Part shown: positions 2,910-5,252 of the stretch, one piece after another | Layout: each line of letters starts with the position of its first letter | How positions within the stretch are numbered: position 1 is the stretch's first letter | NCBI GenBank assembly: GCA_900542565.1 | Contig: UQOC01000084.1 | Coordinates: forward strand, 1 to 5,252 | Length of the DNA stretch: 5,252 nucleotides | Source of the DNA: an uncultured Eubacteriales bacterium | Lineage (GTDB): Bacteria > Bacillota > Clostridia > Peptostreptococcales > Anaerovoracaceae | Direction: 5' to 3' | Position numbers and translations under genes: made by a program | The notes under the pieces: model-generated | Databases searched by the model: none | What the model saw: only the letters and a program-made list of their open reading frames with translations | What the model was told of the DNA's origin: nothing

Positions 2910-3162
2910 TTTACCATGTTGAGACTACTGCCAGATTTGACAGGGAGTTTATAAAACTTGACAGGTATACGCAGCGCATTTGAGGAGAGTGGATCAAAAA
3001 AACCTGGAAGGCTGTTCTGATCCAGGGCAGCATGGGAAAGGATTAAAGGCTAACAGCGACGGACAGGGGAGATGCAGAATAGGCGATTATCGCATCATTT
3101 GTGAGATACAGGATGAGGAACTGATAATCCTTGCCTTGACTGTCGGACACAGAAAAAGATAA
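2906..3162 (+). pseudogene. relE: RelE/ParE-family toxin, decayed (lost start, stop and frameshift)
   Basis: RelE-family toxins are small mRNA interferases. In the frame beginning at 2906 the sequence reads IIYHVETTARFDREFIKLDR and YTQRI, then TGA at 2981-2983, then GEWIKK. After the seven-A run at 2996-3002 the match resumes one frame over as NLEGCSDPGQHGKGLKAN, GDYRIICEIQDEELIILAL and GHRKR. The expected start is ATA at 2906-2908. An ATG there would give the usual ATGA overlap with the antitoxin stop. Usual core residues are also altered: GQGRCR stands where the family normally has GQWRYR, and the C-terminal tyrosine is absent. The open frame 2980-3162 (60 residues) is therefore only the toxin's C-terminal half and has no credible start of its own. 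An active toxin is very unlikely. Confidence 0.78.
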
Positions 3163-3175
3163 TGGAGGCTAGACC

Positions 3176-3469
3176 ATGGAAGACAATGGCATAAAGAAGG
3201 AGCTTCTTGTCCAGATACGGACGATAGCAGCACAAAACGGAGTGAAAAAAGTGATCTTGTTTGGATCAAGAGCAAGAGGAGATCATAACAGAACCAGCGA
3301 CATAGACCTGGCTGTTTCAGGCGGCAATGCTGCCGGATTTGCCGCTGATATAGAGGAAGAAACCGCTACCCTTCTGGAATATGACATAGTTGATCTTGCT
3401 AAACCTGTAAACAAGGAACTGATAGAATCGATCAAAAAGGAGGGAAAAGTATTGTATGAAAAAATATGA
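3176..3469 (+). CDS. mntA: MNT-domain nucleotidyltransferase, MntA-like antitoxin
   Basis: A minimal nucleotidyltransferase of 97 residues. In MNT/HEPN (type VII) modules the MNT enzyme adds AMP to the HEPN toxin and so silences it. The active-site signature is complete: FGSRARG with Gly30-Ser31, ten residues, then SDIDL with Asp42 and Asp44, and a probable third metal ligand Asp73 in YDIVDL. Length is normal for the family. The start is set by GGAGG at 3164-3168, seven bases before the ATG, only 13 bases after the toxin remnant's stop. Its 3' end overlaps the HEPN gene by 14 bases, so the two are translationally coupled. Older annotation would call it the HI0073-type nucleotidyltransferase subunit. 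No lesion is visible, in contrast to the module in front. Confidence 0.9.
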   Translation: MEDNGIKKELLVQIRTIAAQNGVKKVILFGSRARGDHNRTSDIDLAVSGGNAAGFAADIEEETATLLEYDIVDLAKPVNKELIESIKKEGKVLYEKI

Positions 3470-3845
3470 TAACTTTTGTGCAGCTCTTGAAAACTTAAAA
3501 GAGCTATATAACTACAACGAGCCATATGATACGGTTATACTAACCGGTTTGGTCGGACTGTATGAAATATGCTTTGAACAGTCGTGGAAAATGATGAAAG
3601 AAATTTTAGCTTCTCATGGATATGAGGCGTCAGCTACCGGTTCTCCAAAGACTATTCTGAAAACAGCTTTCAAGGCAGGAATGATAGACGATGAAAACCT
3701 TTGGCTGGAAGCCCTGGAAGCCAGGAACAATGTGTCGCATGCGTATAATCGCGACATAGCTAATTATATAGTGAAACAAGCTAAAGATAAGTTTTACAAC
3801 ATGTTCAAGAAATTGAAAGACGAATCCGAAAAGTGGATGCTGTAA
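3456..3845 (+). CDS. hepT: HEPN-domain protein, HepT-like toxin (HI0074 family)
   Basis: An all-helical HEPN protein of 129 residues, of the family formerly called nucleotidyltransferase substrate-binding protein (HI0074). The typical core is visible: FEQSWKMMKEIL (about 40-51), SPKTILKTAFKAGMI (about 63-77), WLEALEARNNVSHAYN (83-98). The R-x4-H ribonuclease motif is Arg90 and His95. Tyr97 completes R-x4-H-x-Y, the tyrosine known to be AMPylated by MntA in studied pairs. It may cleave RNA (tRNA in the best studied case) unless modified by its partner. The start is supported by AAGGAGGG at 3437-3444, inside the MNT gene and 11 bases upstream. The pair lies next to a CRISPR-cas operon, which suggests a defence role, for example abortive infection. 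It is intact. A terminator follows at 3961-3991. Confidence 0.9.
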   Translation: MKKYDNFCAALENLKELYNYNEPYDTVILTGLVGLYEICFEQSWKMMKEILASHGYEASATGSPKTILKTAFKAGMIDDENLWLEALEARNNVSHAYNRDIANYIVKQAKDKFYNMFKKLKDESEKWML

Positions 3846-3877
3846 GATTGAAGGAAAAGTGATCAATAAAGAGCCAA

Positions 3878-3907
3878 GTCGTCCTCAAACGAGGCGTGAG
3901 TAGAAAT
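3878..3907 (+). CRISPR. Solitary degenerate CRISPR repeat, type I-C-like
   Basis: The 30-base unit begins GTCG (3878-3881), has a short stem CCTC (3883-3886)/GAGG (3891-3894) around AAAC, and ends GCGTGAGTAGAAAT. Type I-C repeats are about 32 bases, begin GTCG, carry a C-rich/G-rich palindrome and end GCGTGGATTGAAAT or a close variant. Eleven of the last 14 bases agree with that ending. It lies about 270 bases before a type I-C-like cas3. No second well-kept copy is present in the window, so this is not an array. It may be a regulatory pseudo-repeat, a relic or a coincidence. Confidence 0.5.
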
Positions 3908-3960
3908 TATTAGTTTGATTGTTATGTATCGAATTCCCCGTGATCTTTACGGGCACAGAG

Positions 3961-3991
3961 GCCATCTTGTCTATAGGATAAGATGGCTTTT
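3961..3991 (+). terminator. Intrinsic terminator after MNT/HEPN and pseudo-repeat
   Basis: A 12-bp stem (3961-3972 with 3976-3987, two G-T pairs near the tip) with a three-base loop is followed by TTTT at 3988-3991. It ends the unit that contains the MNT/HEPN genes and the pseudo-repeat, and separates it from cas3. Confidence 0.88.
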
Positions 3992-4022
3992 GCTTAACAA
4001 CAAAAATAATAAAGAAAAATAC

Positions 4023-4051
4023 TTGCATTCGGTTCACATATATGCTATATT
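4023..4051 (+). promoter_or_regulatory. Candidate cas3 promoter P1 (extended -10)
   Basis: TTGCAT (4023-4028, a weak -35) lies 17 bases before TATATT (4046-4051), which is preceded by TGC, giving an extended -10. Initiation near 4058 would leave an untranslated leader of roughly 120 bases before cas3, containing the palindrome and the repeat below. Confidence 0.5.
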
Positions 4052-4066
4052 CAAATCAGAAACGAT

Positions 4067-4079
4067 GGAAAACTTTTCC
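4067..4079. promoter_or_regulatory. Perfect palindrome, possible operator in cas3 leader
   Basis: GGAAAA-C-TTTTCC is a perfect 6+1+6 palindrome, placed just after the expected P1 start and abutting the 26-base repeat. It could bind a dimeric regulator of the cas operon. No regulator gene is visible in the window. Confidence 0.35.
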
Positions 4080-4104
4080 TCACTGTCCGTTTTTTGGCAC
4101 AGTG
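4079..4104 (-). repeat. Palindromic dispersed repeat, copy 2 (inverted)
   Basis: The reverse complement of this stretch matches 1873-1898 at 24 of 26 positions. On the + strand it forms CACTGTCC (4081-4088) against GG and ACAGTG, with one bulged C, around a T-rich loop. There is no T-run after it on either strand, so it does not look like a terminator here. It lies between the two candidate cas3 promoters and covers the place where a -35 for P2 would be. Confidence 0.65.
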
Positions 4105-4111
4105 TCCCGTG

Positions 4112-4117
4112 TATAAT
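4112..4117 (+). promoter_or_regulatory. Candidate cas3 promoter P2, -10 box
   Basis: A perfect TATAAT lies 60 bases before the cas3 ATG, but the -35 position holds only a T-rich sequence (about 4089-4096). If it is used, it would start near 4124, exactly at the pseudo-spacer match. An activator or the neighbouring inverted repeat might compensate for the missing -35. Confidence 0.4.
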
Positions 4118-4119
4118 GG

Positions 4120-4128
4120 CTAATAGAA
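4120..4128 (-). promoter_or_regulatory. Candidate pseudo-protospacer with TTC PAM in cas3 leader
   Basis: Read on the minus strand, 4128-4126 is TTC and 4125-4120 is TATTAG, identical to bases 3908-3913 right after the pseudo-repeat. TTC is the known type I-C PAM and must lie 5' of the protospacer, as it does here. Beyond the sixth base the pairing stops, so cleavage would not be expected, but short seed binding could block transcription at P2. Confidence 0.35.
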
Positions 4129-4177
4129 AAAGAAGTTACCCAAATAAAGAGCAGTGCATTTGCTCAGGAGGCCATTT

Positions 4178-5252
4178 ATGACAACTATATACAAAGCTCA
4201 TCTCAATGAAAGTACAGGTCAGATTCAGACTGTAAAAGAGCACAGCGAAGGTACAGCAAGACTTTGCGAGGAATTTGCAGTACAGCCGTTCAAACCGATA
4301 GCAGCTGCCATGGGCATGATCCACGATGTTGGAAAATTTCAGTCAGTTTTTCAGCGACGCATAAACAACGAAAACATTAAAGTAGAACACTCTACCTGTG
4401 GGGCCATTGTTTCCGCAAAAGAATACGGACCTCCGTCCAGCTATATAATGGAATATTGCATTTCGGGACACCACTCCGGGCTGCCGGACAGCGGTGACAA
4501 AAACGATGATCCGGGCCGCGTGCCGTCGACCATGCACAGCCGCATGAAAAGACAGTTTGAAGATTTCAGCGCCTATAAAAGCGAGTTGGATCTGGTGAAA
4601 CAGGACGAAAAACAGATGAAAGAACTGGAAGATTTTCTTGCCGCTGATTGTAAAACAAATGCGCAGCTCATTGATAAGTTCGCTTTCATCACCAGATATT
4701 GCTTTTCATGCCTGGTGGATGCCGATTCCATAGATACAGGCAGATTCTGCGGCACGCTGAATGAAGACAGGCCCACTGCGGATTTCAGAAGATGTCTTGA
4801 TAAAGTCAACGAGCGGCTTGATTCCTTTGTGTGCAGGACCCAGCTCCAAAAGACGAGGAAACTTCTCCAACAGCAGGTTTTTGACAAGGCTGACAAAGAC
4901 GCTGAGATCTATCTTATGAACATGCCAACCGGCAGCGGCAAGACCCTTTGCAGCGTCAAATTTGCTCTGGAAAGAGCCTTGAGAAAAAACAAAAAGCGTA
5001 TAATCTATGTGATCCCATACAATTCGATTATCGACCAGACAGCCGGCGAGTTTGAAAAGCTGTTTGGACAAGACGCCCAGATATTGAGGCACCAGTCCTC
5101 TTTTTCTTACGAGGATGTAGATGACGAGGACGAAAACTACAGGACAGCCATGAAAACTGCCGCGGAAAACTGGGATGCGCCTTTCATCATAACTACGGCA
5201 GTACAATTCTTTGAATCACTCCATTCTAATAAACGGGGAAAACTCCGCAAGG
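4178..5252 (+). CDS. cas3: Cas3 helicase-nuclease, type I-C-like (3' end outside window)
   Basis: Cas3 is recruited by Cascade to nick and unwind target DNA. The ATG at 4178 has CAGGAGG (4165-4171) six bases upstream. The frame stays open to the window end (358 codons). The N-terminal HD nuclease domain shows His22 (KEHSEG), His49-Asp50 (IHDVGK), His71 (VEHSTCGA), His98-His99 (GHHSGLPD) and a late Asp near 181-183 (LVDADS). The SF2 helicase begins at about residue 225, with Walker A PTGSGKT at 250-256, motif Ia in YVIPYNSIIDQTA, and TTAVQFFESL near the window end. DEAH and later motifs lie outside. KVEHST, PYNSIIDQ and VQFFESL are typical of type I-C Cas3, the first gene of that operon, so cas5, cas8c and cas7 are expected to the right. 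No lesion is visible. The long leader with two possible promoters suggests regulated expression. Confidence 0.93.
   Translation, partial: MTTIYKAHLNESTGQIQTVKEHSEGTARLCEEFAVQPFKPIAAAMGMIHDVGKFQSVFQRRINNENIKVEHSTCGAIVSAKEYGPPSSYIMEYCISGHHSGLPDSGDKNDDPGRVPSTMHSRMKRQFEDFSAYKSELDLVKQDEKQMKELEDFLAADCKTNAQLIDKFAFITRYCFSCLVDADSIDTGRFCGTLNEDRPTADFRRCLDKVNERLDSFVCRTQLQKTRKLLQQQVFDKADKDAEIYLMNMPTGSGKTLCSVKFALERALRKNKKRIIYVIPYNSIIDQTAGEFEKLFGQDAQILRHQSSFSYEDVDDEDENYRTAMKTAAENWDAPFIITTAVQFFESLHSNKRGKLRK

Follow-up and report, generated by a model that had tools for sequence, protein, structure and literature searches.

The locus analysed here raises the question of what a single degenerate type I-C-like repeat, lying upstream of cas3 and outside any array, may be doing there. 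The window, that is, the whole stretch of 5,252 nucleotides of contig UQOC01000084.1 from an uncultured Eubacteriales bacterium, carries cas3 (type I-C; best PADLOC model Cas3c, 1.2e-91) on the plus strand at 4178-5251, where the gene runs off the window; the contig ends inside cas3, which is the sole type I-C cas gene present. A preliminary description had read the region upstream of this gene as a possible autoregulatory, CreR-like crRNA preceding a type I-C cas operon, and this reading is strongly supported by 17 comparable loci in which guide and target are matched. According to our analysis, the segment 3878-3991 is very probably a CreR-like RNA element that would guide Cascade to 3995-4011 and thereby likely repress the cas operon. 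This judgement covers the kind and the make of the element, and it overlaps with the smaller probability, weighed below, that the copy in the window has lost its function.

Degenerate repeat, pseudo-spacer and flanking genes

The hallmark of type I-C systems is the gene order cas3-cas5c-cas8c-cas7c-cas4-cas1-cas2 together with repeats of 32–33 nt, and exactly this order, complete and followed by the array, was found in the relative L008. Sixteen relatives were fetched with the first 358 residues of the window's Cas3, and an array was present in 12 of them; the comparison with arrays was made using the repeats of these relatives, the contig of the window ending inside cas3. When the degenerate repeat (psiR1; GTCGTCCTCAAACGAGGCGTGAGTAGAAAT) at 3878-3907 of the plus strand was aligned globally with array repeats from six relatives, 22–26 bases were identical, and the best of the shuffles (500 per relative) reached 20–22. 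So, the lone degenerate I-C-like repeat announced in the preliminary description is present upstream of cas3 beyond chance, and the comparison with array repeats that it had suggested, made here with those of relatives, turned out in its favour. The 3′ handle of the repeat, GTGAGTAGAAAT at 3896-3907 (+), is intact; in the mature RNA, it would form the 5′ handle. Array repeats ended in the same GTGAGTAGAAAT in 7 of the 12 relatives with arrays (one of these, L016, being counted by a low consensus of four copies) and were one or two bases off in the other five, and the handle was identical at 12 of 12 bases in all 10 lineage relatives that bear the element. The sharing of the handle with arrays and the identities above those of shuffles indicate that the element is a type I-C repeat with a worn stem and an intact handle, which corresponds to the CreR trait of a degenerate repeat outside the array that keeps its processed handle, as judged on the relatives' arrays. 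On sequence grounds, the array repeat of the window's own genome should be expected to end in GTGAGTAGAAAY.

In five of the seven genomes with a CTY handle, those with places listed, a lone handle precedes cas3, and the array that shares this handle is separate from it, at a distance of approximately 8–9 kb in four of these five and on a separate contig in the fifth. The genome G334 (L024) contains a GTGAGTAGAAAT array plus a separate small GTGGATTGAAAY cluster elsewhere on the same contig. The hairpin predicted for psiR1 just 5′ of the handle was no stronger than those of shuffles in the window (z −0.81) and little stronger across the loci (z +0.19 to −2.44).

The repeat is followed by a pseudo-spacer (psiS) at 3908-3935 (+; the 3′ end is approximate), the guide part of which is TATTAGTTTGATTGTTA at 3908-3924. 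Next to it lies a hairpin, CCCCGTGATCTTTACGGG at 3936-3953 (+), which was read from the fold and may be a remnant of a second repeat (psiR2); by eye, it resembles GCCCGTGACGGGC of L052 and the clear psiR2 of L008. A second flanking repeat is clear by eye in L008 and L085-L088, and the window shows the hairpin only. The unit ends in a terminator-like hairpin with a TTTT tail at 3961-3991 (+), also read from the fold, which confirms the terminator described earlier; the fold of 3870-4000 had a z of −4.0. Terminator scans missed this hairpin owing to their loop limits (7–9 nt) and scoring; the terminator picks made across the loci, which were poor or absent at several of them, were not used as evidence. 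In line with the earlier description, no clear promoter was found for the element itself, the best candidate, TTGAAA-17-GATGCT, being poor. No Rfam family was matched.

Genes for an MNT nucleotidyltransferase (3176-3469) and its HEPN-type partner (3456-3845), assigned by Pfam, lie on the plus strand 5′ of the element. The HEPN gene ends 32 bases before the repeat and no terminator was seen between that end (3845) and the repeat, so the element RNA may derive from this operon; as far as can be read from the arrangement, the 3′ end of the MNT-HEPN mRNA could be formed by the element. Further upstream, a DUF6290 protein is encoded at 2635-2802 and a ParE-like fragment at 2980-3162, followed by the MNT-HEPN pair (3176-3845), and two toxin-antitoxin-like modules (DUF6290/ParE-like and MNT-HEPN) thus stand in tandem 5′ of the cas operon.

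Predicted target site, PAM and likely promoter

When the first 17 bases of the pseudo-spacer were compared without gaps along the cas3 leader, one site stood out, TATTATTTTTGTTGTTA, on the minus strand at 4011-3995, with the PAM CTT (minus strand, 4012-4014), which is also the PAM of the lineage arrays. This predicted target (protospacer) matches the guide at 14 of 17 positions, with mismatches at guide positions 6, 10 and 11, and at 13 of the 15 scored bases. Shuffled spacers equalled the site in 0.4% of cases without a PAM, in 0.24% with a YTY PAM and in 11 of 10,000 cases (0.11%) with a CT[CT] PAM. Pairing resumes at positions 13–17 after the breaks at 10 and 11, with which it is among the weakest of the set.

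The likely cas3 promoter, TTGCAT-17-TATATT at 4023-4051 (+), was recognized by its match to the consensus, the start of its −35 being 12 nt away from the first base of the target. It was not listed by the promoter consensus scan, its −35 matching at 3 of 6 bases; the same scan listed TTAACA-18-AATACT at 3994-4023, at the chance rate (1 found, 1.5 expected). The window accordingly presents a further CreR trait, a spacer partly complementary to the cas promoter region with a PAM (14/17, CTT), the promoter being assigned by consensus. Additionally, the cas3 leader contains a small ORF at 4065-4181 (ATG at 4065), the stop codon of which overlaps the cas3 start and for which no ribosome site was seen.

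A different target had been proposed previously, namely, TTC+TATTAG on the minus strand at 4128-4120. All of the short motifs concerned are present, TATTAG at the beginning of the spacer (3908-3913), TTC+TATTAG in the leader and TATAAT at 4112-4117, and what speaks for the proposal is that all six seed bases match, with TTC, next to a perfect −10 box. However, this site matches the guide at 7 of 17 positions in all, and the TTC+six-mer site was found in none of the 10 relatives first found. The match had been estimated as a sub-percent event, which it is not, since TTC with the six-mer arose in 2.2% of 20,000 trials in which the first 17 spacer bases were shuffled; any of the four YTY PAMs with the six-mer occurred in the leader in 5.6% of shuffles. 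Moreover, the lineage PAM is CTT/CTC, and the supposed link to the TATAAT box is not supported, the better site being approximately 110 bases further upstream, beside another promoter-like pair. We regard TTC+TATTAG as a chance match and consider it extremely unlikely to be the site at which the guide acts. The expectation that relatives would keep the repeat together with a seed/PAM match was borne out as to the keeping of both, and the matches lie at other sites and with another PAM than had been supposed. The TATAAT at 4112 is disfavoured as the cas3 promoter, as no good −35 accompanies it by eye.

The PAM follows the repeat type. Loci with the GTGAGTWGAAAT handle had CTT or CTC in 15 of 15 cases (CTT in eight, CTC in seven), and those with the GGATTGAAA-type handle had TTC in three of three, their scans having imposed no TTC requirement. 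Three array spacers of L004 matched a viral contig at 29–30 of the first 30 bases, with CTT in all three; this PAM count disregards a fourth phage match (24/30, with CTG), a match in L002 (24/30, with GTC) and hits within or close to the L008 array. In a published PAM catalogue, CTT (Ruminococcus) and CTN (Anaerobutyricum) are given for type I-C as novel versus the canonical TTC (PMC8482600). The guide-site PAMs, the phage protospacers and the published catalogue together indicate that TTC is the wrong PAM to seek here. When single spacers were scanned in viral_contigs, two of L004 matched one phage contig, and neither a single L008 spacer nor GCGTGAGTAGAAATTATT gave a match; the whole arrays of L004, L014 and L008 gave no phage match by megablast. 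Spacers of the L008 array have further matches, at 26–28 of 30 bases and with no CTT PAM, in the L008 sequence 5′ of the cas operon (at 1773 and 3036, minus strand).

Distribution of the element and guide-target matching

The element build was found in 18 of the 77 non-duplicate type I-C cas3 upstream regions, the window included, and the guides of the 17 other loci differ, each closely matching a site upstream of its own cas3. By group, the build was present in 11 of the 30 regions of the window's Cas3 lineage (the window, L001-L017, L019, L020, L022-L026, L049, L050 and L052-L054), in 1 of the 22 more distant loci (L027-L046, L055 and L056; the positive one is L044) and in 6 of the 25 obtained by a class-level search with the Cas3 of L044 (L063-L088 without L069). 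Second copies of counted loci or genomes were dropped (L018, L021, L047, L048, which equals L016, L051, L062 and L069). These counts leave out 10 of the 40 matching genomes of one search, for which no locus was obtained, and include as negatives L065 and L075 (approximately 160 bases upstream) and L029 (approximately 430), which could hide an element. Genus-level searches around G008 and G035, as well as searches of the family and class of G016, gave no new relatives.

The first scan covered plus-strand elements in 52 regions of 500 bases, requiring a handle-like 12-mer (at least 6 of 12) and, after it, a guide whose YTY-flanked site matched at no fewer than 13 of 15 bases. It gave 11 clear elements (the window, L003, L008, L016, L017, L019, L020, L024, L025, L026 and L052), all with a perfect handle, and none of 60 Markov-resampled versions per region scored as high. 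Of these, L003 and L008 come from mouse-gut Lachnospiraceae. The second scan, of both strands of the 41 remaining regions, added L044, in which the element is in the opposite direction; the 838 handle-like words in the 19 lineage negatives scored at most 12 of 15. The third scan identified L072, L074 and L085-L088 among 568 handle-like words. The first-scan returns of L030 were array repeats, L077 scored 13 of 15 with a handle of 8 of 12, L036 scored 13 of 15 inside a coding sequence, and L009 has a repeat-like stretch by eye without a target; none of these was accepted. No such element was found at four plasmid-borne I-C loci (L058-L061, from seven plasmid hits). On the Cas3 tree, the presence of the element is scattered (9 changes versus a shuffled mean of 9.4), and L049 and L050, the nearest Cas3 relatives of the window (70–71%), are without it.

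In an unmasked, PAM-free search for the best match of 17, a CTT/CTC site was picked in all of the first 11 loci, with a tie of two CTT sites in L026; the leader of that locus has two tandem target sites for one guide, at offsets −152 and −175, both with CTT. The numbers of matches at guide positions 1 to 18 in these 11 loci were 11, 11, 11, 11, 11, 5, 11, 10, 11, 10, 10, 3, 11, 11, 11, 9, 6 and 1. Within guide bases 1–15, 14 of the 17 mismatches fell at positions 6 and 12, or 13 of 17 when the tied second site of L026 was used, and this periodicity is claimed for the first 11 loci, because the later seven were found with positions 6 and 12 masked. In type I guides, positions 6 and 12 stay out of the pairing. 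They are likewise described as unpaired in type I-B CreA (PMC8501985).

The specificity of the pairs was evident from exchange controls. The 110 spacer swaps between loci reached at most 12 of 15, versus own scores of 13–15, and no guide fitted a foreign leader as well as it fitted its own; 335 array spacers run against the 11 leaders also reached at most 12 of 15. At the same time, the guides of sister loci differ at four to eight of the 13 scored positions, and the target followed the change in 6 of 6 positions for L008/L019, 6 of 6 for L020/L024, 4 of 4 for L025/L026 and 6 of 8 for the window and L052. Both these figures and the co-change of guide and target counted in 325 of 343 cases are partly built in, because the loci were chosen for good matches; a fair control is provided by the swaps. 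In the closely related L085-L088, guide variation at positions 4, 5 and 16 is mirrored in the targets.

The placement of the sites relative to the predicted promoters also recurs among loci. For targets on the minus strand, the start of the −35 is 4–16 bases away from the first base of the target (window 12, L003 11, L008 6, L019 4, L020 4, L024 10, L052 16 and L017 11, the last by the second-ranked promoter, the best-scoring one being 139 nt away), and for targets on the plus strand (L016, L025, L026 and L044), it is 19–24 bases away, with 23 in L044. By eye, the sites of L085-L088 are immediately 3′ of the −10. L072 departs from this: the element is at −260 and the target at −378, with no obvious cas3 promoter adjoining; since this target is upstream of the element itself, it may serve to regulate the element or another promoter.

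Likely mode of action, rival readings and known systems

Processing by Cas5c leaves a handle of 11 bases. In the scheme that we favour, 3878-3991 would be transcribed into a crRNA-like CreR RNA, and Cas5c would likely cut it inside the repeat, leaving such a handle; cutting of type I-C repeats by Cas5, not Cas6, is described in PMC10013973. Type I-C Cascade loaded with this RNA would bind 3995-4011 beside the likely cas3 promoter (4023-4051) and, by blocking RNA polymerase on the leader, would likely repress the cas operon. By analogy with other CreRs, array crRNAs or anti-CRISPRs could divert Cascade, which would relax the repression and raise the output of Cas protein; for CreR, it is reported that cas expression is low until Cascade is drawn away (PMC12737573, PMC13131331). 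Beyond about base 17, the guide no longer matches the target, and the pseudo-spacer seems short relative to array spacers, which are 32–36 long. Guides no longer than 24 bases are reported, for type I-B, to repress without interference (PMC10989794), and by this analogy, the short match and pseudo-spacer would allow binding without cleavage.

The most serious rival is that the element is the same and the family real in the relatives, with the window holding a decaying or orphan copy that no longer regulates; we regard this as possible, though unlikely. The breaks at guide positions 10 and 11 speak for it, as single changes at these positions abolished CreA function in type I-B according to PMC8501985, and so do the unclear promoter of the element, the patchy presence on the Cas3 tree and the broken neighbouring genes. 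Against decay stand the handle, intact at 12 of 12 bases, the 13 of 15 scored bases matched with the lineage PAM, a result reached by 11 of 10,000 shuffles, and the pairing that resumes at 13–17. The pairing breaks, the poor promoter, the patchy presence and the nearest relatives without the element are the reasons for which both the favoured reading and this rival are held at the strengths given. A functionless leftover of a former array, with a spacer taken from the genome itself, would also consist of a repeat and spacer-like DNA, and self-targeting spacers exist; however, the guides differ among 18 loci and each fits a site 5′ of the cas3 of its locus, the mismatches clustering at the flipped positions, and because decay would not preserve such a guide-target pattern, we find this explanation scarcely credible.

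A further reading, modelled on CreA antitoxins, holds that what is expressed from the targeted promoter is mainly a small toxin RNA (CreT) encoded in the leader, rather than the cas genes. Approximately 120 bases separate the promoter-like pair from cas3 and hold the small ORF (ATG at 4065), which contains AGA codons by eye; at the same time, several loci are too tight for a separate toxin gene (−35 at −60 in L003 and at −54 in L008), and we consider this arrangement very unlikely. Returning to the CreR-like regulator of the cas operon, a broader proposal can be built on it, according to which type I-C has a wide class of short-guide CreRs of its own, evolving together with the cas leader and changing PAM along with the effector, the RNA in the window being cut by Cas5c from the 3′ end of the MNT-HEPN toxin-antitoxin mRNA, which would tie autorepression of cas to the processing of that mRNA. 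We would give this combined proposal little chance.

That an effector can be directed at the promoter of its own cas genes through a short match is known from tracr-L of type II-A, which is based on tracrRNA and Cas9, unlike the unrelated RNA and effector considered here. CreR RNAs were introduced as cas-regulating RNAs by Liu et al. (2023, Cell Host Microbe), as cited in PMC13131331, PMC12737573 and PMC12948488. To judge from these citing texts, the element shares with CreR its crRNA-like make, its position outside the array and upstream of cas genes, its partial complementarity to the cas promoter region and the lack of an obvious toxin partner. CreR is named for types I-B, I-E and V-A in the available text of PMC13131331 and for "type I and V-A" generally in that of another review (PMC12737573). 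Unlike the CreRs reviewed there (I-B, I-E and V-A), the present element is a predicted one of type I-C, where repeats are cut by Cas5 instead of Cas6, and, unlike them, it has a CTT/CTC PAM in most loci. Our literature search found no CreR paper for type I-C, the 2023 CreR paper being one that may mention I-C. CreR is an established kind of regulator, and it is the type I-C version that may be new.

The likeness to CreA of the CreTA module (type I-B, Haloarcula), as far as PMC8501985 and PMC9458426 describe it, extends to the degenerate psiR1 with the 3′ handle best kept, to the use of a PAM, to the seed at 1–5 and 7–11 with flipped positions 6 and 12 (PMC8501985), and to the presence of one or two repeats, some with a terminator directly after the pseudo-spacer. 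In contrast to CreA, which represses the promoter of a toxin RNA and is described as pairing to base 11, cas3 is here the nearest gene downstream of the target, and pairing usually reaches base 15–17. With the Racr RNA anti-CRISPRs, the element has in common a solitary repeat outside the array, according to PMC10651486; Racrs are viral decoys in that account, whereas the present element is located at the host's own cas operon together with a matched target. Comparison of the window with phage collections gave no match.

Type I-C is a common CRISPR subtype. If the favoured reading is true, the self-braking logic of CreR would also operate in I-C, with a different processing enzyme and a mostly different PAM, in gut Clostridia. 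The 18 guide-target pairs would then be ready-made tests of the extent of pairing that represses without cutting, and the self-match would deserve attention both in scoring arrays for autoimmunity and in reprogramming native I-C systems for repression.

Two minor observations concern the remainder of the window. A gene for a U32 peptidase/DUF3656 collagenase-like protein is broken across two frames, at 3-512 and 487-1857. Shortly after it, at 1871-1894, lies a hairpin like that at 4081-4104, one reading CACTGTCC...GGACAGTG and the other CACTGTCC...CACAGTG, and by eye, the two are approximately reverse complements of one another.
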